Shown: piece by piece, positions 43,354-57,929 of the stretch
Numbering within the stretch: the stretch's first letter is position 1
Layout of the letters: the number at the start of each line of letters is the position of its first letter
From: Caballeronia turbans
GTDB taxonomy: Bacteria > Pseudomonadota > Gammaproteobacteria > Burkholderiales > Burkholderiaceae
NCBI GenBank assembly: GCA_001544655.2
Contig: FCOD02000024.1
Location: 26,971 to 90,970 of the forward strand
Direction: 5' to 3'
DNA: 64,000 nt
Notes under the pieces: generated by a model
What the model was told of the DNA's origin: nothing
Database searches by the model: none
The model's input: only the letters and a program-made list of their open reading frames with translations
Translations under genes and position numbers: made by a program

Positions 43354-43787
43354 AGCCGTTCGAGCCGCTCGAAGCAGGTGGACGGGGCTGGCGCGTTGTC
43401 GTCGATGAACTGATCGTGAAGACGCGCGTCGGCCTGTACGAGCATGAGCATGAGGGGCCGCAACCCGTGTGCATCGATGCGAGCCTGTGCTATCGCGGGA
43501 TGCCGCATGAATCGGACGATGGGTTGATCGACTACGAGGCGTGGTGCAATCGCGTGAGCGCGTTTCTCGAGACGAAGACGCATACGCGCTTGCTCGAGAC
43601 GCTCGCGGTGGAGATCGCGGCGCTGTCGTTCGAGCAATGGCCCGCGCTGGATGCGCTCACGCTCTCGCTGCACAAGCCGAAGATCCGGGAAGGCACGAAG
43701 CGCCTCGGTCTCGAACTCGACTGGCGGCGCGCGGATTTCGATGCGTGGCGGATGAACGTCGGCGCGCAACATACGTTCGTGCGATGA
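43350..43787 (+). CDS. Dihydroneopterin aldolase-family protein (FolB-like)
   Basis: A 145-residue tunnelling-fold protein. Family signs are WRVVVDELIVKTRVGLYEHE (about 14-33), IDYEAWCNRVSAFLETKTHT, LLETLAVEIAALSFEQWPAL (with the catalytic-type Glu) and LTLSLHKPKIREGTKRLGLE. FolB makes a precursor of tetrahydrofolate, the acceptor of the formaldehyde unit in sarcosine oxidase, so a dedicated copy in the sox operon makes metabolic sense. Overlapping starts and stops (ATGA on both sides) put it firmly in the operon. Confidence 0.85.
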   Translation: MKPFEPLEAGGRGWRVVVDELIVKTRVGLYEHEHEGPQPVCIDASLCYRGMPHESDDGLIDYEAWCNRVSAFLETKTHTRLLETLAVEIAALSFEQWPALDALTLSLHKPKIREGTKRLGLELDWRRADFDAWRMNVGAQHTFVR

Positions 43788-44056
43788 ACGCGTCGCGCGA
43801 TGCCGCCGCGCGGCTTTCCGCGCGCACGTTCCAGAAGCGTGATGCGGACGCGGCGCTTGCGTTGCTTGAGCGGAGCATTGCGTTGAAGCATCGGAGGATC
43901 GCGTTGATCCGATATCTGCACGCGCAGTTTCTCGATGCGCCGCTGGAGGCGCGGCATCATGAGTACGTGAAGGGGATTGCGGCGCGATTGAGTGCGGAGG
44001 CGGTGATGCGCGTTGTGGCGGCGGCGCGGGGGCGTTTTGAGGGTGAGGGGGCGTGA
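43784..44056 (+). CDS. Small hypothetical protein, last gene of the sox operon
   Basis: A 90-residue, mostly helical, arginine- and alanine-rich protein (MNASRDAAARLSARTFQKRD, then LLERSIALKHRRIALIRYLH). I do not recognise it. ATGA overlap with the FolB-like gene argues that it is translated. Its stop is only 24 bases from the first decayed CRISPR repeat, so the array's distal end abuts the operon and no terminator is visible between them. Confidence 0.68.
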   Translation: MNASRDAAARLSARTFQKRDADAALALLERSIALKHRRIALIRYLHAQFLDAPLEARHHEYVKGIAARLSAEAVMRVVAAARGRFEGEGA

Positions 44057-44080
44057 TGGGATTTGGGTGTTGCAAGTTGC

Positions 44081-46550
44081 GGTGTGTCTCGGCGCACGCG
44101 GAGGAACCCTCCGGACTTCAGGCTGGCGAGCGGCGGCATTAACGGTGTATCTACGCACGCGTGGAGGAACCTCAGCGATGTGCTGGTGAGGTGCGACTGG
44201 ATAGGGTCTATCTCCGCACACGCGGAGGAACCTCAGCCGATCGGCCGCTCGGAACCTTGTAGACGGGTCTATCTCCGCACACGCGGAGGAACCAAGCGGC
44301 CGCCGCCCACAAGCACGTCATAACCGGGTCTATCTCCGCACACGCGGAGGAACCCCGATGCGAAGGGTGTGATGCGACCGCAACTCGGGTCTATCTCCGC
44401 ACACGCGGAGGAACCGAACCACATTAAGCGCTCCGGACTCGCCCTCAGGGTCTATCTCCGCACACGCGGAGGAACCGCGATACAGAGGGCCGAGATACTC
44501 CCGTCCACGGGTCTGTCTCCGCACACGCGGAGGAACCTGTTCGAAGCGGAATTACCGTCGCGTGCCCGCGGGTCTATCTCCGCACACGCGGAGGAACCAA
44601 AGTCGGGCGATGCGGGCGTCTCGGGCGTGAGGGTCTATCTCCGCACACGCGGAGGAACCTCGAGCACGCGTTTCGTGATGCTGTTCTGGATGGGTCTATC
44701 TCCGCACACGCGGAGGAACCAAGGAATCTGAATGGGATCAGAAGGAGCTTACGGGTCTATCTCCGCACACGCGGAGGAACCGTCGTAGTCGAGCGTGCAC
44801 GGTTCTTCGGCCAAGGTCTATCTCCGCACACGCGGAGGAACCCTGCAGAATGCCTTCTGCGCCTTTCGCGACAACGGTCTATCTCCGCACACGCGGAGGA
44901 ACCCGTGGGCATGGCAAGGGATTAACTGATATGCCGGGTCTATCTCCGCACACGCGGAGGAACCAGCAACGCGACTGCTGACCCGATCGAGTACCTGGGT
45001 CTATCTCCGCACACGCGGAGGAACCTGTAGCGACCGCCGAAAACACGGGCATGGAAAAGGTCTATCTCCGCACACGCGGAGGAACCGACGATTTCCTGCG
45101 CAAATTCCCGCAAGGTCCGGGTCTATCTCCGCACACGCGGAGGAACCGTCGAGCACGTGACAAAATAAAAAGTGCAAAAGGGTCTATCTCCGCACACGCG
45201 GAGGAACCTGGGTGTAGAGCTTCGTGCCGTTCTGAATCGACGGTCTATCTCCGCACACGCGGAGGAACCGATTTGTCTGGGGCCCTAAAGATCGCGAAGC
45301 AAGGTCTCTCTCCGCACACGCGGAGGAACCCGAGGTCGAGCTCGTTGAGCGTGCGCTCACCGGGGTCTATCTCCGCACACGCGGAGGAACCGGGCGACGA
45401 GAGAGACGCTCACGCTGCCTTCCGGGTCTATCTCCGCACACGCGGAGGAACCCCGACCGGATACTCGAGGTCGGCCCAATGCCCGGGTCTATCTCCGCAC
45501 ACGCGGAGGAACCGGCGTGATGATGTCCATGTCCACCCATCCCACGGGTCTATCTCCGCACACGCGGAGGAACCGACAACACTTATGCGGACATGACGCT
45601 GGACACGGGTCTATCTCCGCACACGCGGAGGAACCCTGGCGAAGAACGTGCGGTGCTCGTTCCCTCACGGTCTATCTCCGCACACGCGGAGGAACCATGC
45701 TCAAGTCGATCCGCCAGCGCCGCGGTGAGGGTCTATCTCCGCACACGCGGAGGAACCGATGACGCCGGCCTATATGGCTGCGTGCTTCCGGGTCTATCTC
45801 CGCACACGCGGAGGAACCCGACCACACCAGAATGCAGCGCGACGCGGGCATGGTCTATCTCCGCACACGCGGAGGAACCATCCTCTACCGCGCGTGCGCG
45901 AAGGATGCCGAGGGTCTATCTCCGCACATGCGGAGGAACCAGTTCGTCCAGACTGCCGATATCGCCTTTCCAGGGTCTATCTCCGCACACGCGGAGGAAC
46001 CTCGCCGGAACAGTCGAGCCTCAACAAACCGCTGGGTCTATCTCCGCACACGCGGAGGAACCAAGCCAAGCCACAGCGGAGAGCCGCCCCCCCAGGGTCT
46101 ATCTCCGCACACGCGGAGGAACCCCGCCGACGGTTCCGGTGCCGCGCGGCGCCACGGGTCTATCTCCGCACACGCGGAGGAACCCACCTCTTCCCAGACC
46201 TGTGACCGGAGATCCCGGGTCTATCTCCGCACACGCGGAGGAACCTGAAGCAAGTGGCGGCTGTGGATAACTCGGTCGGGTCTATCTCCGCACACGCGGA
46301 GGAACCCTGGAATGCCGCCGCCATGACGCGGTCCTGTGCGGTCTATCTCCGCACACGCGGAGGAACCTACGCCGAGCAGGTCAGCAAGCAATGCTTCTGC
46401 GGTCTATCTCCGCACACGCGGAGGAACCCGGACAAGAGCTTTCTCGGCAACGCGTCGGAAAGGTCTATCTCCGCACACGCGGAGGAACCTGTCGTATCGC
46501 TCATTCAGTCTGGCTCGGTGAGGGTCTATCTCCGCACACGCGGAGGAACC
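44081..46550 (-). CRISPR. Type I-E CRISPR array 1 (41 repeats, 40 spacers)
   Basis: 28-nt repeats with core CTCCGCACACGCGGAG and end GGAGGAACC start at 44081, 44144 and then every 61 bases from 44205 to 46523 (33-nt spacers if the repeat is taken as 28 nt). In crRNA sense the repeat is read on the minus strand, beginning GGTTCCTCCGCGTGTGCGG, the class I-E form. The first two repeats (44081, 44144) each carry four mismatches and mark the old distal end; single variants occur at 44510, 45303 and 45913. So transcription runs leftward from a leader at 46551. Open frames across the array (VYLRTRGGT, SISAHAEEP types) are artefacts. Confidence 0.98.
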
Positions 46551-46824: not shown

Positions 46825-49488
46825 GTGATCAGAGAGCGCATGCGAACAGAGACAAACAAGAGCGATACTTTCGTCGCGTGGGGCAAGCGGCCGAGAGACG
46901 GAGACGAGCACTCGCTCTTCCATCCGCTTTGCGATCACATGCTGGATGTGGCGGCGTGCTTCATGGCGATCGCGCATTGCGGGCGCATTCGCGACGCCTT
47001 GAGCGTCAGCGCCGGTCGGTCATTGAGCGAGCAGGATGTCGAGCGGCTCACAGCACTTGCCTATCTGCACGACTTCGGAAAGGCCAATAGCGGCTTTCAG
47101 GCGAAACGATGGAAAGGCCCCGCGCCGCGCGAATGGCCGCAGAAAGCAGGACACGGCGTGGAGGCGCTCCACGCGTTCCACTGCGGTGGAGCACCGCTTT
47201 CAGAACTGCCCATCGAAGCGATATCGACATGGGGCGGCGGTGTGTATGAACTTCTGCTGGCGAGCCTGGGCCACCACGGTCGTCCCCTCAAGGATCCATC
47301 GGGAATCGATCCGCTGATATGGCGGCCCGTGCGCGATGCCGCCGGTCGCGATCTCTACAGTCCTGCCATCGCGCTGAAGGAAATCGGCGCTGCCTTGCGT
47401 CAGCACTTTCCACTGGCATTCGACTCGGGCGGCGAGCCGCTCCCGTCCACGCCCGCGTTCGTTCATCTGTTCGCGGGCCTCGTGCAATTGGCCGACTGGC
47501 TCGGTTCCGATCTGCGCTTCTTCGAGTACGGCACGCCAGGCTCCGCGCGCGCGCTGAAAGACGCGCTCGATCGGGCATCGAAGGCGATTGCATCTATCGG
47601 ACTCGAAACCTCGGCGCTGCGCGCGCAGCTGATTCGCGAAGGATTCTCTTTCCAGTCCGCTTTCGAAGTCGATGCGCCACGCCCGGTTCAAAGCGCGCTC
47701 GGAGAGGAAGAACTCGGCCCGCTTCTCATCCTCGAATCGGAAACCGGTAGCGGCAAGACCGAAGCCGCGCTGTGGCGCTTCGCGAAGCTCTTCGAGGCCG
47801 GCAAGGTCGATTCGCTGTATTTCGCGCTGCCTACGCGCGTGGCCGCCGCTCAGGTTTATGAGCGCGTGCGCAAGTTCGTCGCGCGTCTCTGGCCGAAGAA
47901 CGCGCCGGTCGTCGTGCGTGCCCTGCCGGGCTACGAAAGCGCGGATGGCAATGAAAAATTCGCCTTGCCGGACTTTCAGGTCTTGTGGGCCGATCATCCC
48001 GACGATGCGACGGCGCACCAGCGCTGGGCCGCCGAGTCGCCGAAGCGGTTTCTCGCGGCGACGATCGCCGTCGGCACGATCGATCAGGCGTTGCTCGCGG
48101 CGCTGCAAGTGCGTCATGCGCATCTGCGTCATGCGGCGCTTTGCCGGTCCTTGCTCGTCGTCGACGAAGTGCACGCGTCCGACGCCTACATGTCGCAAGT
48201 GCTGGAGCAACTCCTCAAGGCGCATGTCGCCACGGGCGGCCATGCGCTGCTTTTGTCCGCCACGCTCGGTTCAGGTCAGCGCGCGCGGTTTCAGCGCATC
48301 GCGAGCGGGGGCGGGGAAGTCGCTGTGCCAGATATCGAAGAAGCCGTGCGATCGCCGTACCCCGCGCTCACGGACGGTGGAACCGTTCGAGGATTGCCCG
48401 GCTCCGGAAGATCGAAGACGGTCCACTGGCAAACACTCGACGCAATCGACGATCACGAGCGCATCGCCCAACTCGCATTCGATGCCGCGAAGCAAGGCGC
48501 GCGCGTATTGATCGTCCGCAACACCGTACCGGCCGCAATCGCGACACAAAAGGCGGTGGAAGCGTTGGTCGACGCATCCGGCGATCGCGCATGGCTGTTC
48601 GATCTCGAGGGCGTCCCGACGCTGCATCACAGCCGCTTCAGCCGGCAGGACAGGCCGTGTCTCGATGCGCGCGTCGAAAAGCGCGTCGGCAAGGTGCGCG
48701 AGGCAATGCAGGCGTGCATCGTCGTTGGCACGCAGACGCTCGAGCAAAGCCTCGATATCGACGCGGACATGCTCATTACAGATATCTGTCCGATGGACGT
48801 GCTGTTGCAGCGCATCGGCCGCTTGCATCGGCACGAACGCAAAGGCGAGGATCGCCGGCCGAAGGGTTTCGAAGAAGCGCGCGCTTGGGTGCTCATACCG
48901 GCGAGCGGTTCCTTCGAAGCGTGCCTTCAGGTGCCGCGCAATGGCCTCGGCCCGCTGAAAGACGGCGGCGGCGTCTATCCCGACTTGCGCATGATCGAAG
49001 CGACGCGACGTCTGATCTGCGAGCAGCCGAGCCGCGTGATTCCGCGCGAAAACCGCAGCCTCGTGGAGCGCGCGACACATCCCGATTGCCTGCATTCGAT
49101 ACAAAAAGAACTCGGCGCATCGTGGGAGCAACTTGCGCAACAGCTCGAAGGCGGCACGAGCGCCAAGCGAATAACCGCGCGACTCAATGTGCTTTCCTAC
49201 GACGCGCGTTTCGATGAAGCCGGGTTCCCTGACGGCGACGAGCACATCGCCACGCGTCTTGGCGCGGCCGACCGTCTCGTCGAGTTCGAACCGCCTGAGC
49301 CGGGGCCGTTCGGCGCGGAGGTGCGCCAGATCGCCATCCGTCATCACATGCTGTCACCCCGGCTCGACGCAGACGCGAAGCCGGATTCGATCGTCCGTCA
49401 CGACGGAGGTTTCGAATTTGCCTTGGGCGCCGCTCGCTATTCGTACACCCGGTTCGGTATCGAGAAGATCGGCGCGCGCAAAGTTTAG
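46825..49488 (+). CDS. cas3: Cas3 helicase-nuclease (type I-E)
   Basis: An 887-residue fused HD nuclease and SF2 helicase that shreds target DNA after Cascade binding. HD motifs are His33 and His38 (HPLCDHMLDVA) and YLHDFGKANSGF (His82-Asp83). Helicase motifs are Walker A SETGSGKTEA (about 307-316), DEVH (about 447-450), SAT (about 478) and VI QRIGRLHRH (about 661). Length matches E. coli Cas3 (888). The start is GTG at 46825 (AGAGG nine bases upstream); ATG at 46840 is an equal alternative. First gene of the cas operon, ten bases before cse1. Confidence 0.96.
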   Translation: MIRERMRTETNKSDTFVAWGKRPRDGDEHSLFHPLCDHMLDVAACFMAIAHCGRIRDALSVSAGRSLSEQDVERLTALAYLHDFGKANSGFQAKRWKGPAPREWPQKAGHGVEALHAFHCGGAPLSELPIEAISTWGGGVYELLLASLGHHGRPLKDPSGIDPLIWRPVRDAAGRDLYSPAIALKEIGAALRQHFPLAFDSGGEPLPSTPAFVHLFAGLVQLADWLGSDLRFFEYGTPGSARALKDALDRASKAIASIGLETSALRAQLIREGFSFQSAFEVDAPRPVQSALGEEELGPLLILESETGSGKTEAALWRFAKLFEAGKVDSLYFALPTRVAAAQVYERVRKFVARLWPKNAPVVVRALPGYESADGNEKFALPDFQVLWADHPDDATAHQRWAAESPKRFLAATIAVGTIDQALLAALQVRHAHLRHAALCRSLLVVDEVHASDAYMSQVLEQLLKAHVATGGHALLLSATLGSGQRARFQRIASGGGEVAVPDIEEAVRSPYPALTDGGTVRGLPGSGRSKTVHWQTLDAIDDHERIAQLAFDAAKQGARVLIVRNTVPAAIATQKAVEALVDASGDRAWLFDLEGVPTLHHSRFSRQDRPCLDARVEKRVGKVREAMQACIVVGTQTLEQSLDIDADMLITDICPMDVLLQRIGRLHRHERKGEDRRPKGFEEARAWVLIPASGSFEACLQVPRNGLGPLKDGGGVYPDLRMIEATRRLICEQPSRVIPRENRSLVERATHPDCLHSIQKELGASWEQLAQQLEGGTSAKRITARLNVLSYDARFDEAGFPDGDEHIATRLGAADRLVEFEPPEPGPFGAEVRQIAIRHHMLSPRLDADAKPDSIVRHDGGFEFALGAARYSYTRFGIEKIGARKV

Positions 49489-49497
49489 AGCCCATTC

Positions 49498-51099
49498 ATG
49501 CACATCCAATTCAGCTTGCTCGATCAAGCGCTGATCCGCTACCGGACCAGCAATCGACAGGAACGGTACGCGACGCTGCCGGAACTGCTGATCGCGTTCA
49601 ACAATGACGAGGTGAGCGATTTTCCCGCGCTGCGTCCGCATCAGCGTCATCCGTGGCATGCGTTTCTCGTGCAGCTTGCGGCGATCGCGCTTCATGCGGC
49701 GAAGCGCGATACGCCCTTCGAAACCGCCGGCGAATGGCGCACGGCATTGCTTGCACTGACGCCCGACGATAGCGACGGCGCGGCGTTCTCGCTCGTCGCA
49801 CCGGACGATCGCCCAGCCTTCTTGCAGGCGCCGTGTGAGCGTGGGGCATCGCGCACGTGGAAGAAGTGCCTTGCAACGCCCGACGCGCTCGACATGCTGG
49901 TGACATCGAAGAATCACGACCTCAAGGCCCAACGCATGGCTCATGCACAAGCCGAGGACTGGATCTACGCGCTCGTCAGCCTGCAGACACAAGATGGCTT
50001 TCTTGGTGCGGGCAACTATGGCATTTCGCGCATGAACGGCGGCTTCGCCAGTCGTCCGGCGTTCGGTGTGGTGCCGATCGGCCGCTGGGGGAAGCGCTGG
50101 GCGCGTGACGTCCGGCTTCTGCTTCGCAATCGCAACCAGATTGTGGAGATGTTCGAGTTGAAGGAAAAAGACGGCATCGCGCTCGTGTGGCTTCAGCCTT
50201 GGGACGGCGCGAGCAGCCTTTCCTTCGACCAACTCGATCCCTTCTATATCGAAGTGTGCCGGCGCGTGCGTATTCAGGCGCACGGCGAAACGTTCGCCGC
50301 CATCGCCACGACCAGCAAGACCACGCGCATCGCCGCGAAGGAACGGTGCGGCAAGACGGGCGATGCCTGGACGCCGATCGAGGCCGCCGAGGGCAAGGCG
50401 CTGTCGATCACGGCGAGAGGCTTCGATTACAAACTCGCGAGCGCGCTTGCGTTCTCGAGTGAATACAAGCCGACCATCACGCAAAATGTGCAGGAAGACG
50501 ATGCAAAAGAAGGCCTCGTCATCCTCGCTCAAGCTATCGCGCGCGGTAAGGGAAAGACCGAGGGATATCACGAAAGACGCATTCCGATTACGACGAAGAT
50601 GCGCGACTTGATGCTGCGGCAAAGCAGCGATGAGGTCGCCAAGGTGGCACAAGAGCGCATCACGGCAATCAGCGATGTCCGCAAGACGCTTTGGGGCGCG
50701 TTGTGTGCGCTCCTGGGCAACGACGCTCAGAACGTGAGCGACGAGATCAAGAACAAAGCGGGCAAGTTTGCGAGCGCGTTCGAGCAAGGCGAAGACCAGC
50801 GATTCTTCGACGATCTCGGCAAGGAGATCGAAGCCGACGACCGGGACGGTGAGCACGACCAATGGCTCCTTGCGATCGTCGATCGCGCCGCCGCAGTGCT
50901 GGAGCAAGCATTCGTCGCGGGACCGCGCAGCGCGGAACGCGTCTATCGCGCTCGAGGCGCGGCGCTTTCGCGTTTTCACGGTTTCTTGCGTTCAGAGAAA
51001 GCGCCGAATCGAATCGCTCGCGTGTTGAAAGACCGCGATGAAGCGCGTAAAGCCGCGCAATCCGAATCGTTCGAAGGGGATTCAGATGACTCAAATTGA
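49498..51099 (+). CDS. casA: Cascade large subunit Cse1 (CasA/Cas8e)
   Basis: A 533-residue Cse1 that recognises the PAM and recruits Cas3. The N-terminal half fits the family: LPELLIAFNNDEVSDFPALR, PHQRHPWHAFLVQLAAIALH, then GNYGISRMNGGFASRPAFGV and GKRWARDVRLLLRNRNQI. The C-terminal 150 residues are helical. It starts MHIQFSLLDQALIRYRTSNR and overlaps cse2 by 14 bases. Confidence 0.93.
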   Translation: MHIQFSLLDQALIRYRTSNRQERYATLPELLIAFNNDEVSDFPALRPHQRHPWHAFLVQLAAIALHAAKRDTPFETAGEWRTALLALTPDDSDGAAFSLVAPDDRPAFLQAPCERGASRTWKKCLATPDALDMLVTSKNHDLKAQRMAHAQAEDWIYALVSLQTQDGFLGAGNYGISRMNGGFASRPAFGVVPIGRWGKRWARDVRLLLRNRNQIVEMFELKEKDGIALVWLQPWDGASSLSFDQLDPFYIEVCRRVRIQAHGETFAAIATTSKTTRIAAKERCGKTGDAWTPIEAAEGKALSITARGFDYKLASALAFSSEYKPTITQNVQEDDAKEGLVILAQAIARGKGKTEGYHERRIPITTKMRDLMLRQSSDEVAKVAQERITAISDVRKTLWGALCALLGNDAQNVSDEIKNKAGKFASAFEQGEDQRFFDDLGKEIEADDRDGEHDQWLLAIVDRAAAVLEQAFVAGPRSAERVYRARGAALSRFHGFLRSEKAPNRIARVLKDRDEARKAAQSESFEGDSDDSN

Positions 51100-51679
51100 A
51101 GGCGTCGCGCCGCAAACATGGCGCGTCTCGAGCAATCAGGCACAAACGCTCGCCCGTTTCATCGAAGCCGGAAGACAAGGCGAAGGCGCGCTGAAGGCGG
51201 ACCATGTCGCGCTCAAGCGTCTCAACCCGGATGCGGAGTCGCTGACGGTGCAACAGATTGCGGCCCTCACGCGCGCTTTGCAGCGTGCGAAAGTGGATTG
51301 CGAACAATTGAGCGTCGAGGGCTGGAAGCGATGGGCCGTGATCGTGAACGGCATCGCGCTGACGGGTCATCACATGCCGAAGGATGGCGAGAGCAAGGCG
51401 AACGCACGATTCGGATTCCAGTTGAGGCGCGCAGGCGTGTCAGATGCGCGCGTCACCCGGCTTTTCAACGCGCGTGGCGATGCGTTTTTCCCACTGCTGC
51501 AGCGTGCTCTTCGCATGATGCAAAGCAGGAATGTCGAGCCGAACTGGGCCGAACTGGGCACCTTCGTCCTGAACGAAAGCGCGGAACATTCCAAGGGAAA
51601 GCGTTGGGCGGAAGCGCTGCGCATCCGGTTCGTCCATGACCATGCCAGCGCCAGCCCCGAAGGCGCAAAGAAGCCGTGA
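51086..51679 (+). CDS. casB: Cascade small subunit Cse2 (CasB)
   Basis: A 197-residue all-helical Cse2 that stabilises the crRNA-target hybrid as a dimer. Family segments are LARFIEAGRQGEGALKADHV, WAVIVNGIALTGHHMPKDGE and RFGFQLRRAGVSDARVTRLF followed by FFPLLQRALRMM. The ATG at 51086 follows GAAGGGG; an in-frame ATG at 51038 lies deep in cse1 and is not needed. A 51-base gap separates it from cas7. Confidence 0.92.
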   Translation: MTQIEGVAPQTWRVSSNQAQTLARFIEAGRQGEGALKADHVALKRLNPDAESLTVQQIAALTRALQRAKVDCEQLSVEGWKRWAVIVNGIALTGHHMPKDGESKANARFGFQLRRAGVSDARVTRLFNARGDAFFPLLQRALRMMQSRNVEPNWAELGTFVLNESAEHSKGKRWAEALRIRFVHDHASASPEGAKKP

Positions 51680-51730
51680 CCGCCGGCACGCAGACAAACG
51701 CCTACTCAATCAGCAACCGAAGGACCGAAC

Positions 51731-52912
51731 ATGACTCACCCGCGCTTCATCCAGATTCACACGCTGCAAAGCTACTCCGCCGCGCTTCTCAACCGTGACG
51801 ATTCCGGCCTCGCGAAACGCCTTCCGATGGGCGATGCCATCCGCACGCGTATTTCATCGCAATGTCTCAAACGGCACTGGCGCACGGCCGACGATCACCA
51901 CTCGCTGGCGACGCTCGGCGTGCCGATGGCCGTCCGTTCGCGCATCACGCTCACGATGATCCGCGACGAACTGATCAGGCAGAACGTGCCCGAGGCCCTT
52001 GCTCAAACCGCGGCCGAGGCCTTGCGCGATGCAGGCTTGCTCGACAAGGGCGGAAAGAAGCTCAAGGGAAAGGATGCGTTGGAAACCGGGCAGGCCGTTC
52101 TGCTCGGCAAGGCGGAAATCGACTATCTCGTGCAGCGTTGCGCGACGCTGGCGCGAGAATGCCAGGAGGAGGCGGCCTTGACATCAGCGGTCGCCGGCTT
52201 CCTCAAGGAGGAGAAGGCGAACATCGAAGCGCTCAAGCACGGCAGCGGTCTCGAGTCGGCGCTCTTCGGTCGCATGGTCACGTCGGATATCCTCGCGTCG
52301 CGCGATGCCGCAGTGTATGTCGCGCACGCGTTCACCGTGCACGAAGCGCAGGTGGAGAACGACTATTTCACCGTCGTCGACGACCTCTTGCGCGAAACCG
52401 GCGAACGCGGCTCAGCAGGCCTCTTCGACACGGAACTCGCGTCCGGTCTCTACTATGGTTATGTCGTCGTGGATGTGCCTCAACTGGTGGCGAATCTCGA
52501 AGGTATCGGCATGGCGGAGTGCTTTTCGGCGCATCCCGAGCGGCGCGAACTGGCAGGACGGGTCGTCAACAACCTGCTGCATCTGATCGCGACCGTCAGT
52601 CCCGGCGCGAAGCGCGGTTCGACAGCGCCATTCGGTCACGCGAGCCTGATGCTCGTCGAAACGGGTGACTGGCAGCCGCGCAGTCTCGCGGGCGCTTTCG
52701 AAACGGCGCTGAAGCTGAAGGGCGCGAATATCCGCGAGCACGCAATCAGGCAACTCGCGCGGGAAATCGACAAGCACGACGCGGCATATGGGGCGCCGCT
52801 CGATCGCCGGTATCTCGCGCTCGATGACGAGACGCCGATGCCGAAGGCCCAACGCCTCTCACTCGATCAACTCGGCAAGTGGGTTCAGAACCGCATCGTC
52901 GAGGGCGCGTGA
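51731..52912 (+). CDS. cas7: Cascade backbone protein Cas7e (CasC)
   Basis: A 393-residue Cas7/CasC, six copies of which line the crRNA spacer. The start FIQIHTLQSYSAALLNRDDS followed by GLAKRLPMGDAIRTRISSQC and LKRHWR is diagnostic. SGLYYGYVVVDVPQLVANLE and KRGSTAPFGHASLMLVETGD are further family regions. AACCGAAGGA lies upstream. It ends two bases before the cas5 start. Confidence 0.95.
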   Translation: MTHPRFIQIHTLQSYSAALLNRDDSGLAKRLPMGDAIRTRISSQCLKRHWRTADDHHSLATLGVPMAVRSRITLTMIRDELIRQNVPEALAQTAAEALRDAGLLDKGGKKLKGKDALETGQAVLLGKAEIDYLVQRCATLARECQEEAALTSAVAGFLKEEKANIEALKHGSGLESALFGRMVTSDILASRDAAVYVAHAFTVHEAQVENDYFTVVDDLLRETGERGSAGLFDTELASGLYYGYVVVDVPQLVANLEGIGMAECFSAHPERRELAGRVVNNLLHLIATVSPGAKRGSTAPFGHASLMLVETGDWQPRSLAGAFETALKLKGANIREHAIRQLAREIDKHDAAYGAPLDRRYLALDDETPMPKAQRLSLDQLGKWVQNRIVEGA

Positions 52913-52913
52913 C

Positions 52914-53651
52914 ATGTCCCGACATCTGCTGATGCGCTTGCGCGCACCGCTCGTGTCGTTCGGCGGCGAAACGATCGACAGCAACGGCGTGATCCGCGAC
53001 TTTCCCGCGCTGTCGATGGTGACGGGCCTGATCGCCAATGCGCTCGGTTACGATCGCGGCGACTTCGCTTCGCACGACCGGTTGCAGGCGCGCATCGTGA
53101 TGGGCACGCGGCTCGATGACGGCGGCACGCGGCTCGTCGATTTTCAGACAGCGCAGCTCGGCAAGCGCGACGAGGCATGGACGACGCGTCGTGAGCCCGA
53201 GACGCGTCAGGGCGACTCGTACGAGGGCCCGCATTTGCGTCATCGCGAGTATCACGCGGATCTCGACGCGCTCATCGCCATGCGGCTCGAACCGGCGGAC
53301 GAGAAACCGACGCTCGATGACATCGCGGCCGCGCTCGATCGGCCGAAGCGTCCGCTTTTCATCGGCCGCAAGCCTTGTCTGCCGATGACGCGCGTGTTCA
53401 TCGACATCATCGATGCCGACGACATACTCGACGCGCTGCAACAGACCGCTGCGCCGGACCTGCCCGAGTTCCGCGTTCAATTGCCCGAAGGCGAGGGCAC
53501 GCCGCGTCAGTCGCGATGGCAGGACGTATGCGACGAACGCAACTGGAAGACTGGCGTTCACGGCGGCTGGCGGCGCGTGCTCGAAGGGAGCGGCCCAACA
53601 CGGGTGACGCCTGCAGCGAATTCATCGAACTTGGCGGAACGATCCGTATGA
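52914..53651 (+). CDS. cas5: Cascade Cas5e (CasD)
   Basis: A 245-residue Cas5 that caps the crRNA 5' handle. It begins MSRHLLMRLRAPLVSFGGET, then LSMVTGLIANALGYDRGDF, and has DRPKRPLFIGRKPCLP near residue 145, all typical of the I-E form. The ATG at 52914 overlaps the cas7 stop region, and its own stop shares ATGA with cas6. Confidence 0.94.
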   Translation: MSRHLLMRLRAPLVSFGGETIDSNGVIRDFPALSMVTGLIANALGYDRGDFASHDRLQARIVMGTRLDDGGTRLVDFQTAQLGKRDEAWTTRREPETRQGDSYEGPHLRHREYHADLDALIAMRLEPADEKPTLDDIAAALDRPKRPLFIGRKPCLPMTRVFIDIIDADDILDALQQTAAPDLPEFRVQLPEGEGTPRQSRWQDVCDERNWKTGVHGGWRRVLEGSGPTRVTPAANSSNLAERSV

Positions 53652-54418
53652 CCGTCTTCAACTTGATGCACTGCCAACCCGATTCGCGCAAGCTCGTGCT
53701 GTGGGCCTCGCGGCAAGGCTGGTTGCCGGCGGGCGGCGATCTCGGCTATGCATTGCATGCGGCGCTCCATCTCGTGTTCGGTGAGCGCGCGCCGAAGCCT
53801 TTTTACTATCGCGATGCGCGCGCGGGACTGCTGGCCTACACGCAAAGCGAGGCTGAACAACTGCACGAGGCGGCCGCGATGTGCGCGGCGCCCGATCTCG
53901 CCGACGCACTGGGTCTCGACGCAGGGCCGCGAAGTCCCGGCCTGTGCGTGCGTGCGTTTCCGCATCGCTGGGACGCGGGCCGCGTGCTGGGTTTCGAGGT
54001 CCGCGTGCGGCCCACGCGCCGTAACAGTTACGTAGAGAATGATCGCAAGCACGCGAGCGAGCGCGATGCGTATCGCGAAGACGAAGCGCGCATGGAGGAC
54101 CAGCAGCCCCTGCCGCGCGAGGCCGTCTATGCACAGTGGCTCGCCGAGCAATTCGAGACCAGTCGCGCCGCGAAGCTGGTCGAAGCGCGCATGACGCGCT
54201 TTCAGCTCACGCCGGTCTTGCGCCGGACACAGTCGAGCGAGCAGGGGTACGGAGGCCGCAAGCCGCACACCATCGTCGGTCCGGATGCCACGTTCAGCGG
54301 GCACGTTCGCGTCGAGGATACGGACGCGTTCGCAAGCCTGCTCATGCGCGGCGTCGGGCGTCATCGTGCGTTCGGGTTCGGCATGTTGCTGCTCAAGCCG
54401 GCGTCGATATCGGCATGA
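53648..54418 (+). CDS. cas6: Cas6e crRNA endoribonuclease (CasE)
   Basis: A 256-residue Cas6e that cuts the pre-crRNA 3' of the repeat hairpin and stays bound to it. The active-site region is DLGYALHAALHLVFGE (about 31-46), offering Tyr34, His37 and His41. The Gly-rich RNA-binding loop appears as LLMRGVGRHRAFGFGMLLLK near the C-terminus. The hairpin it would recognise is the CTCCGC/GCGGAG stem of the repeats in both arrays. Confidence 0.94.
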   Translation: MTVFNLMHCQPDSRKLVLWASRQGWLPAGGDLGYALHAALHLVFGERAPKPFYYRDARAGLLAYTQSEAEQLHEAAAMCAAPDLADALGLDAGPRSPGLCVRAFPHRWDAGRVLGFEVRVRPTRRNSYVENDRKHASERDAYREDEARMEDQQPLPREAVYAQWLAEQFETSRAAKLVEARMTRFQLTPVLRRTQSSEQGYGGRKPHTIVGPDATFSGHVRVEDTDAFASLLMRGVGRHRAFGFGMLLLKPASISA

Positions 54419-54434
54419 GTCGCGCAACACGCCC

Positions 54435-55322
54435 GTGCTGAAGGGTCGCCTCGGACTCGACACTTCGCGCGTTCCGCATGTGGATCGTCACGGTCTCGTG
54501 TGGCTCGAGCGCGGTGAGTTGAACGTGATCGACGGATGCCTGCATTTTTCGAGCGGGAAATATGTCGATCAGATTCCGCATCAGTCGGTGTCGATGATTC
54601 TGCTCGGCCCGGGCAGCAGCGTGACGCACGACGCACTGCGTCTGCTCGCCCGTCATGGGACGCTGCTCGCGGCGGTGGGCGTCGACGGAGTGCGTACCTA
54701 CACCGCGCCGCCGTTGATGCCGGACCGTTCGAGCGTCGCGCGCCGGCAAGCGGAACTGTGGGGCAGCCCGCGACGGCGCTTGAGCGTCGCGCGGCACATG
54801 TATGCGCTGCGTCTGGGCGAAGTGCTGCCGCATCGCGATCTCGACACGCTTCGCGGCATCGAAGGCGCGCGCGTGAAGACGATCTATCGGCTGCGGGCGC
54901 AGCAGTTCGGCATCGACTGGGACGGGCGTCGTTATGACCGTGCGAATCCCGAAGCCACCGATCTGCCGAATCAGGCGATCAATCATGCAGCGACGGCGGT
55001 GCAGGCGGCGGCCGCCATCGCTGTGCAGGCGCTGGCTGCGATACCGCAGCTCGGATTCATCCACGAGGATTCGGGGCAAGCGTTCGTGCTCGATATCGCC
55101 GATCTTTTTCGCGATGACATCACGCTTTCGATAGCGTTCGCCGCCGTAAAGGAAGCCGGGCGAAACGATCAGACGATCGACCGTCTGGTGCGGCGCGAGG
55201 CGGCGCGGGTGTTTCGCAAAAAGGCGGTCATTCCCGCGATGATCGATCGCGTGAAGCAAGTGCTGCGTCTGGACGAGAAGCTGGAGGAGAACGATGGCGC
55301 TGGTCGTGGTAGTGACGCGTGA
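54435..55322 (+). CDS. cas1: Cas1e adaptation integrase
   Basis: A 295-residue type I-E Cas1. Catalytic residues match E. coli Glu141/His208/Asp218/Asp221 as Glu143 (GIEGARVKTIY), His210 (LGFIHEDSGQ), Asp220 and Asp223 (VLDIADLFR), with the same spacing. The start is GTG at 54435 (read MLKGRLGLDTSR), since that is where homology begins and no in-frame ATG is nearby; the ribosome-binding site is poor, so coupling to cas6 is likely. It overlaps cas2 by 29 bases. Confidence 0.94.
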   Translation: MLKGRLGLDTSRVPHVDRHGLVWLERGELNVIDGCLHFSSGKYVDQIPHQSVSMILLGPGSSVTHDALRLLARHGTLLAAVGVDGVRTYTAPPLMPDRSSVARRQAELWGSPRRRLSVARHMYALRLGEVLPHRDLDTLRGIEGARVKTIYRLRAQQFGIDWDGRRYDRANPEATDLPNQAINHAATAVQAAAAIAVQALAAIPQLGFIHEDSGQAFVLDIADLFRDDITLSIAFAAVKEAGRNDQTIDRLVRREAARVFRKKAVIPAMIDRVKQVLRLDEKLEENDGAGRGSDA

Positions 55323-55593
55323 TGTGGCGGACCGGTTTCGCGGATTTCTTGCCTCGGTGATGCTGGATGTCTCGGCGGGGGTGTATGTCGCGCCGCGCAT
55401 GAACAAGGGCGTGCGCGAACGGACCTGGTCAGTGCTTGCCGATTGGCACGGACACGAGCCGCGAGGCAGTGTGGTGATGGTTTGGCGGGATCTGGATGCG
55501 GTCGGTGGTATCGGGATCGCGCATCTCGGTGCGCCGCCGCGAGAGCTTGTCGATGTCGATGGGATGTATGTCGTGCGGCGGTTGATGGCGTAG
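55294..55593 (+). CDS. cas2: Cas2e adaptation protein
   Basis: A 99-residue Cas2 of the E. coli subfamily that forms the Cas1-Cas2 spacer integrase. It starts MALVVVVTRDVADRFRGFLA and has SAGVYVAPRMNKGVRERTW, then SVVMVWRDLDAVGGIGIAHL. It starts inside cas1 after GGAGG (GAAGCTGGAGGAGAACG), which supports the ATG at 55294. Array 2 begins 88 bases after its stop. Confidence 0.94.
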   Translation: MALVVVVTRDVADRFRGFLASVMLDVSAGVYVAPRMNKGVRERTWSVLADWHGHEPRGSVVMVWRDLDAVGGIGIAHLGAPPRELVDVDGMYVVRRLMA

Positions 55594-55681
55594 GTGCGCG
55601 TATTGTTCTTTGAAAATTCGGCGTTTGAGATTGGATCAGAAGGGGGATTTTGCGTTTCTGGTCATGGGGTTATGAGGTAGA
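55594..55681 (+). promoter_or_regulatory. Leader of CRISPR array 2
   Basis: The 88 bases between cas2 and the first repeat are AT-richer than their surroundings and include TTGTTCTTTGAAAAT (55603-55617), which resembles a motif in the array 1 leader. There it starts 33 bases from the repeat, here 79. Polarity fits, since repeats decay at the far end. Confidence 0.7.
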
Positions 55682-56257
55682 GGTTCCTCCGCGTGTGCGG
55701 AGATAGACCCAAAGGCACTTGCGCGCGTGGAGAGATGGCGCGGGTTCCTCCGCGTGTGCGGAGATAGACCCAGGACCGTGGCCAGCGCGGTCATCAGCCC
55801 CCAGGTTCCTCCGCGTGTGCGGAGATAGACCTCTGCGTCAGACCGGCAAAAACTTGCGTCTGCGGGTTCCTCCGCGTGTGCGGAGATAGACCCCAGAGGA
55901 GCGGAAGGGGAGAGGCTTTTTCACCGGTTCCTCCGCGTGTGCGGAGATAGACCGCTCTACGAACGCCTAACCGCGCTCAACATTGCGGTTCCTCCGCGTG
56001 TGCGGAGATAGACCGTGCCGGGCGTCACGCGTGCGTGGGTCGCGCCGGGTTCCTCCGCGTGTGCGGAGATAGACCCGTGATACCGTCTTTCTCTGCCACG
56101 GACGAGACGGTTCCTCCGCGTGTGCGGAGATAGACCTGAGGACGATGCCGAGGCTTTGATCGCAGAAAAGGTTCCTCCGCGTGTGCGGAGATAGAGCCAG
56201 GTTGACATGACCGACCCGCTCAAGAGCGAGATTCCTCCGCGTATGCGGAAACATCCC
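55682..56257 (+). CRISPR. Type I-E CRISPR array 2 (10 repeats, 9 spacers)
   Basis: The same 28-nt repeat as array 1, here in crRNA sense on the plus strand (GGTTCCTCCGCGTGTGCGG start), begins at 55682 and recurs every 61 bases to 56170. The repeat at 56170 has one change. The last, at 56230, has six mismatches of 28 and lies inside the 3' end of betA on the opposite strand. Leader-proximal repeats are identical, so growth is from the cas2 side. Array 2 and array 1 therefore both grow next to the cas operon and point away from it. Confidence 0.97.
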
Positions 56258-57929
56258 CCACCTCCCCCCGCGCCCGCTTCCCCCCCGCCACAAAATAAGG
56301 CGTCGCCACGCGCCCCAACGCCTCCCTTCCCCGAATCCGATCCGCGATCTTCTCCGCCAACATGATCGTCGGCGCATTGAGATTCCCGGTCGTGATCTGC
56401 GGCATGATCGACGCATCCAAGACGCGCAATCCTTCCATCCCATGCACGCGTCCCTCCCCATCGACGACAGCCATATCGTCGTAGCCCATCTTGCACGAAC
56501 AGGAAGGGTGATAAGCCGTCTCCGCCTTCGCTCTCACGAAGGCATCGAGTTCCGCATCGCTTTTCAGGTCATCGGAAGGATGAAGCTCGCGCCCCCGATA
56601 CCGCGCGAGCGCAGGCTGACGCATGATCTCCCGCGTGATGCGAATCGCATCGCGGAACTCGCGCCAGTCGAGCGGATCGGCCATGTAGTTGAAAAGAATG
56701 CCCGGATGCGCATGCGGATCGCGTGACTTGAGCTTCACGCGCCCGCGGCTCGGCGAGCGCATCGATCCGACGTGCGCCTGAAATCCGTGCATCTTGATCG
56801 GATTCGATCCGTTGTAGTTGATCGCCACCGGCAAGAAGTGATACTGAATGTTCGGCCACGGGTCGTCGTCGCGTGTGCGGATGAACCCGCCCGCTTCGAA
56901 CTGATTGCTCGCGCCGATGCCCGTGCCGTTCAGCATCCACTCGAGGCCGATCGCCGGCTGATTCCACCACTGCAACGCCGGATACAAGGAGACAGGCTCC
57001 TTGCATTCGTATTGCATGTACATCTCCAGGTGATCCTGCAAGTTCTCACCGACACCCGGCAGATCGTGCACCACGGGAATCTCCAGCTCCCTGAGCCACG
57101 CCGGCCGCCCCACGCCCGAGCGTTGCAGCAATTGCGGCGAAGCAATCGCGCCGCTGCACACGAGCACCTCGCGCCGCACATGCGCCGTGACACGCTGCCC
57201 GCCGTGCAGATACGCGACGCCGATTGCACGCTTGCCCGCGAACACCACGCGGTCGGTGGTTGCATGCGTAACGATCGTGAGATTCGCGCGATGCTTCGCG
57301 CGATCCAGATACCCGCGCGCCGTGCTCGCACGCCGTCCGTTCGCAGTCACAGTGCGATCCATCGGGCCGAAACCTTCTTGCTGATAACCGTTCAGATCCT
57401 CGGTGCGCGGATAACCCGCCTGCACGCCGGCCTCGACCATCGCGGCGAAAAGCGGATTGTTGCCGGGCTTGCTCGTCGTCACATGCACGGGGCCATCGCC
57501 GCCGTGATACGCATTCGGACCGATATCGCGTGTCTCCGCCTTCCGAAAATACGGCAGGCAGTCGAGATAGCTCCAGTCATCGAGCCCCGGCTGCGCGGCC
57601 CAGTTATCGTAATCGAGCGCATTGCCGCGGATATAGCACATGCCATTGATGAGCGACGATCCGCCCAGCCCCTTGCCGCGCCCACATTCCATGCGGCGGT
57701 TGTTCATATGCGGCTCGGGCTCGGTTTCATACGCCCAGTTATAGCGCCGCCCCTGAAGCGGATATGCCAGCGCCGCGGGCATCTGCGTGCGAAAGTCGAA
57801 GCGATAGTCCGGCCCGCCCGCTTCGAGCAGCAGCACGCTCACGTCCTCGTCTTCGGTGAGGCGCGACGCGAGCACGTTGCCCGCCGATCCCGCGCCGACG
57901 ATGATGTAGTCGTATTCTTTCGCGCTCAT
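56220..57929 (-). CDS. betA: Choline dehydrogenase (GMC oxidoreductase) with CRISPR-derived C-terminus
   Basis: A 569-residue GMC flavoprotein oxidising choline to betaine aldehyde. It has the FAD motif [20 protein letters not shown] (about 7-26), [15 protein letters not shown] (about 83-97) and the catalytic His region [13 protein letters not shown] (about 465). No clear ribosome-binding site was decisive; the ATG at 57929 gives the standard N-terminus. The last twelve or so residues ([12 protein letters not shown]) are encoded by the decayed CRISPR repeat at 56230-56257 and flanking bases, so the native stop seems lost. The body is intact and the tail probably tolerated. betB follows upstream by 12 bases. 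Confidence 0.92.

Follow-up and report, generated by a model that had tools for sequence, protein, structure and literature searches.

The 3′-end of betA in the stretch of Caballeronia turbans DNA studied here (the window: 64,000 nucleotides of contig FCOD02000024.1, numbered from its first letter) runs into a CRISPR array on the opposite strand, which raises the question of whether a conserved enzyme can take its last residues and its stop codon from CRISPR DNA, and whether such a tail is of any use to the enzyme. The answer that we consider likely is that a type I-E locus occupies the space between two convergent genes, betA and geneX, with one of its arrays abutting the betA stop codon by its outer end, and that the native stop has been lost here, the reading frame taking seven residues from the terminal repeat and two from the terminal spacer. 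The resulting tail is genuine, as far as comparison with relatives can tell, but is probably a neutral genomic accident in a soil bacterium.

A type I-E locus with two arrays

The cas genes are located at 46825-55593 (forward strand) and comprise cas3, cse1, cse2, cas7, a putative cas5, cas6e, cas1e, and cas2. Cse1, Cse2, Cas7, Cas6e, and Cas1e all score above their NCBIfam cutoffs, and the domains of Cas3 and Cas2 above the Pfam cutoffs, which identifies the system as type I-E; the putative cas5 is an open reading frame (52788-53651, forward strand) that we placed within the set. The set ends in cas2 and is followed by array 2 (55682-56257, forward strand; 10 repeats including the terminal one), whose leader is assumed, from the orientation, to be on the cas2 side. 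Array 1 (44081-46550, reverse strand; 41 repeats when up to six mismatches are allowed) faces outward, and its far repeat directly adjoins geneX (43784-44056, forward strand), a gene for 90 amino acids with no Pfam or NCBIfam match, which lies next to betA and converges on it where the CRISPR locus is missing; the eight other CRISPR-bearing species have geneX as well.

Tandem Repeats Finder gave no array in the interval 55300-56700, for which the lack of any relationship among the spacers is presumably the reason. Other frames through array 2 give spurious ORFs (55957-56496 and 55967-56461). Two further arrays of the same repeat family are found elsewhere in the genome (G000 contigs C48, 306793-307430, and C61, 87840-88776; loci L154 and L155); among the open frames listed through or near both outer ends of these arrays, none was judged to be a real gene entering the array.

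The betA reading frame ends in array 2

The betA gene (56220-57929, reverse strand) encodes a choline dehydrogenase of 569 amino acids: its product scores 913.8 bits against the TIGR01810 equivalog cutoff of 732.1 and 970.6 bits against the NF002550 subfamily cutoff of 605 (both NCBIfam). The best betA match in the plasmid collection is 85% identical. Residues 1-554 align with the BetA of relatives, R554 (56268-56270) being the final invariant residue in an alignment of 22 BetA sequences, and the Pfam GMC_oxred_C match stops at residue 525. Beyond this conserved part, the frame crosses the terminal repeat of array 2 (56230-56257) and closes at a TGA (56220-56222, reverse strand) within the terminal spacer, after using 7 nt of that spacer (56223-56229, reverse strand) for the end of S567, R568, and S569. 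A spurious CRISPR ORF would be a frame inside the array that encodes no conserved protein; betA, with its conserved residues 1-554, is not of this kind.

The terminal repeat, which lies at the end of array 2 far from cas2, is decayed, with 6 mismatches in 28 positions to the array 2 consensus; when the local DNA was shuffled 5000 times, no shuffle gave an equally good match. It keeps its register (it starts 60 nt from its neighbour; the other spacings in array 2 are 61 nt), it forms the outer end of the array, and its decay is mostly in the 3′ part: read in the sense of the crRNA, the first 20 nt (56230-56249) match at 18 positions, and the remaining 8 nt (56250-56257) at four. An earlier note on this DNA had placed the repeat, with its six mismatches and its period of 60, within betA on the opposite strand, and had read SAYAEES in the frame from which the peptide SISAHAEEP arises elsewhere in the arrays; both readings were confirmed, the second directly from the codons of an intact repeat. 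The same note put the repeat-derived tail at about 12 residues, which is what the 28-nt footprint and the spacer code together (G558-S569). An array-derived tail does exist, but because only the first 20 nt of the repeat are recognisable, the part that we regard as securely array-derived is nearer nine residues, namely S561-S567 from the repeat (S567 being shared with the spacer) and R568-S569, with the stop, from the spacer.

Decay at the far end of a terminal repeat is ordinary: substitutions and truncations at the 3′-end of the last CRISPR repeat are documented in a review (PMC8047081). In the eight species examined among the nine with an array beside betA (described below), the first 20 nt of the terminal repeat (11-18 matches of 20) are better kept than the last 8 nt (1-4 of 8). 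We also considered that the repeat had been cut specifically by the betA junction; this idea is weakened by the outer repeats at the geneX end, which likewise lose matches in their last 8 nt (2-6 of 8 in seven species, C. cordobensis and G006 having yielded no repeat at the threshold used), the one in the window being less decayed (6 of 8). Cas6e processing of crRNAs relies on the repeat hairpin, and the hairpin half of the last repeat may survive because the last crRNA still needs it.

The G-rich junction

The recognisable repeat is separated from the last conserved residue by 18 nt (56250-56267, reverse strand) that encode GEVGDV, the 3′ 8 nt of which fall inside the unrecognisable last third of the repeat. 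These codons may be either the native betA end or G-rich junction DNA. They resemble ELGDV, the end of BetA in INDeC2 (which on the betA tree is the closest relative without CRISPR), at a level reached in 7 of 20000 protein-level and 796 of 20000 DNA-level shuffles; summed over three clade mates, which were picked after the match had been seen, the resemblance was equalled in 0 of 20000 protein-level shuffles. We rejected the view that GEVGDV, in the light of ELGDV in INDeC2 and GEV in two other relatives, must be the native end, since the DNA-level support is weak and the G-rich junctions of the CRISPR carriers fit too; by eye, the codons are also similar to the junction DNA of C. zhejiangensis and G053.

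The end of betA (56250-56300) is G-rich on the coding strand, with runs of 7, 6, and 5 G, and the same is true of several CRISPR-bearing relatives. In C. cordobensis, a run of 56 G interrupts betA short of its end (L095, 11581-11636), at the same G-rich junction beside the array; this run is probably an assembly fault.

Relatives with an empty site

In the CRISPR-free C. jiangsuensis, C. megalochromosomata, C. hypogeia, C. calidae, C. novacaledonica, and INDeC2, window-like DNA extends up to 56258-56269 (the betA end), and at most about 240 nt further on a match begins to 44037-44057 and beyond (the geneX side); it is at exactly this site, between betA and geneX, that the window has the 12-kb type I-E locus with both arrays. 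The spacing between the two genes is wider in five other CRISPR-free genomes, namely BR12568055 (about 310 nt), C. ptereochthonis, C. arvi, G035, and G017. In the empty-site species betA has other tails and other stops, and different DNA follows the body of the gene, which bears out the claim that the native betA stop is gone from the window and that array DNA supplies the end of the reading frame. Relatives without CRISPR that share both the window's betA end and the DNA after it were looked for, and none of those inspected has them: AYAEE occurs in the betA tail of one of 47 genus genomes (the window only) and in none of 80 loci of the species collection. The 47 genomes are those with a betA match among 58 searched; betA is broken or frameshifted in three of them (G008, G015, and G046), in which its true end was not read.

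A hairpin followed by an A-run was seen (by eye) 3′ of betA in 8 of 10 CRISPR-free loci inspected, and the one in INDeC2 was scored as a terminator for the opposite strand by a simple scan. The terminator scan of the window gave no such site between betA and array 2; of the two sites that it did score on the betA strand, one falls within betA itself and the other at the next-to-last repeat (56191-56174), and the latter, being past the betA stop, could serve betA. It scored no others.

In the CRISPR-free C. novacaledonica there is a 20-nt repeat core with 5 mismatches between betA and geneX (L048, 11712-11731), equalled in 3 of 400 shuffles and the best of 11 species tested; allowing for the 11 tests, it is only suggestive of a scar from the loss of a whole locus. 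By eye, this core is like the geneX-side outer repeats of C. pedi, C. glebae, and C. peredens.

Nine species carry an array beside betA

An array beside betA is not peculiar to this strain, since nine of the 47 genomes have one within 700 nt of the gene: the window, C. pedi, C. cordobensis, C. zhejiangensis, C. peredens, C. fortuita, C. glebae, G006, and G053 (the other 38 have none within that distance). In the eight other carriers betA is followed by the array, a cas segment, and geneX, as in the window, and in six of the eight a second array was found before geneX.

The position of the stop codon relative to the terminal repeat forms a series: counted from the start of the repeat, its first base is at +35 in the window, +14 in C. 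glebae, +1 in C. pedi and C. peredens, -3 in C. zhejiangensis, -4 in C. fortuita and G053, -5 in G006, and -19 in C. cordobensis. In the seven carriers apart from the window and C. glebae, the stop thus begins between -19 and +1, at most 20 nt before the repeat or at its unrecognisable edge. A remnant of the repeat at the same place was recovered in C. pedi, C. fortuita, and C. glebae (equalled in 1, 0, and 3 of 5000 shuffles, respectively), and in C. zhejiangensis and G053 (15 of 20 nt each), for which the automatic search took the second repeat and the outermost one was chosen by eye. The match is weak in C. peredens (75 of 5000) and no better than chance in G006 (511 of 5000); for C. cordobensis, the automatic repeat search found a G-run only.

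The betA of C. glebae also ends inside its repeat, in the same frame as in the window, with the tail end GSA and only three residues after the last conserved arginine. The earlier note had called the window's arrangement rare, a word to be used with caution given C. glebae and the seven other carriers with stops at -19 to +1. In C. peredens the repeat comes directly after the stop, and the tail resembles (score 20, without shuffles) that of the CRISPR-free G017, its sister on the flank trees; this arrangement is as expected for the state before the loss of the stop. The outermost spacers beside the betA end in C. zhejiangensis (L049) and G053 (L145) are nearly identical (3 differences in 34 nt, by eye), and the array end is therefore either old or exchanged.

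Origin of the tail

Direct observations are the reading frame and the repeat, together with the empty site of the relatives and their different betA ends. The events that would connect them are as follows: the outer end of array 2 would have come to abut the betA stop codon, and a small deletion in the G-rich junction, perhaps between G-runs, would then have removed the native stop. The open frame now closes at the first stop in the array DNA, having taken seven residues from the terminal repeat, of which the hairpin half survives, and two from the terminal spacer. The longer BetA would be made as protein, with a tail that we expect to be functionally neutral.

The strongest competitor, though a rather improbable one, is an assembly or base-calling error in the G-rich junction, in which case the true betA would have its own stop or another frame and the tail would be an artefact. 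The G-runs of 7, 6, and 5 just before the repeat are where an error would shift the frame, the draft genome is in 120 contigs, and the implausible 56-G run in the betA of C. cordobensis points the same way; but the 7-G run is also present in C. calidae and C. glebae, and C. glebae, which is not the sister of the window on the flank trees, reads into its own repeat in the same frame. Moreover, adding or removing one base in the 5-G run leads into the other two frames, which run 84-88 codons further and would give a BetA of 657 or 653 amino acids. Of the three frames, the observed one is thus the shortest, and no early stop would be restored by a single slip in that run.

That the tail has been domesticated, its repeat-derived residues being kept for some benefit to BetA (stability, localisation, or regulation), had also been proposed, and we find this very hard to credit. 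The tail is in frame, intact, and short, it ends quickly, and C. glebae uses the same frame, but the same frame in two species is a coincidence expected about once in three, and C. glebae has only three residues after its last conserved arginine. The tail also lies past R554 and outside the recognised domain (the GMC match to 525), and is known from one genome of the species, in which a fixed change and a strain oddity are not separable. The tails of the close relatives of the window, moreover, differ with or without CRISPR: the 21 loci L039-L059 show 12 different lengths. More distant relatives are more uniform (561 amino acids in 25 and 562 in 11 of the 59 loci L060-L118, read from residue 1), an indication that the end is not free everywhere and that some constraint on it is possible outside the close relatives of the window. 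For the window itself, the repeat-coded tail is probably functionally neutral.

Chance likeness to a repeat, with the tail simply native betA, is refuted for SAYAEES and next to negligible overall, given the 18 of 20 matching nt at the right spacing, unmatched in any of the 5000 shuffles, and the remnants at the same place in C. pedi, C. fortuita, C. glebae, and (by eye) C. zhejiangensis and G053, even though BetA tails near the window are too variable for the homologous end to be named with certainty and GEVGDV may be native.

History of the locus

The presence of the locus changes at least six times on each of two flank trees (24 rows, 9 with the locus and 15 without), which do not separate gain from loss. 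When only the nine carriers are compared, three main groups are common to the cas tree and to a flank tree, but the placing of C. peredens is in conflict: the 24-row flank trees put this species with the CRISPR-free G017 (100/100), apart from C. pedi and the window, whereas the cas data place it with C. pedi and reject a grouping of the window with C. pedi (p 1e-5). At least one exchange of the locus is therefore likely, on the evidence of these trees.

A broader reading, which we offer as speculative and rather doubtful, is that two convergent stop codons enclose a fixed slot in which the CRISPR-Cas locus is repeatedly gained or lost. The hairpins of its terminal repeats would replace the hairpin of most CRISPR-free sites, and one short stretch of DNA would serve three purposes at once: it would provide the last crRNA with its 3′ handle and the betA mRNA with its 3′ hairpin, and two species would also use it as code for the end of BetA; each change in the slot would then rewrite the tail.

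Comparison with known systems

We consider the finding real, well supported by comparison, probably neutral in effect, and of modest interest. It offers a naturally occurring example, with relatives that show the empty site, in which DNA of a CRISPR array has become the end of a protein-coding gene, and the series of nine species illustrates the mutual erosion that is possible between a stop codon and the end of an array. For annotation it carries a warning: real genes can have their ends in array DNA, and the masking of CRISPR arrays can truncate them. Among the matches listed from the open-licence literature, we found nothing on genes that take their end from a terminal CRISPR repeat, which is weak evidence of absence, and in the same literature no paper on Caballeronia with CRISPR and type I-E systems.

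Three kinds of systems come close. As in the degenerate terminal repeats described in PMC8047081, decay affects the 3′-end of the last repeat; unlike in those, the decayed repeat here also codes, on the other strand, for the last residues of an enzyme encoded next to it. A second parallel is the spurious translation of CRISPR arrays (PMC7673337), which shares with our case the reading of repeat DNA as protein; in our case, the frame belongs to a genuine and conserved enzyme, of which only the last residues are array-derived. Finally, the Rickettsia palindromic elements, which according to a review (PMC10969869) are inserts within genes that occur in many copies, are likewise short palindromic repeats of non-genic origin that are read in frame in a host protein; the betA tail differs from them in coming from the end of an array that abuts the gene, in one clear case together with C. 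glebae.
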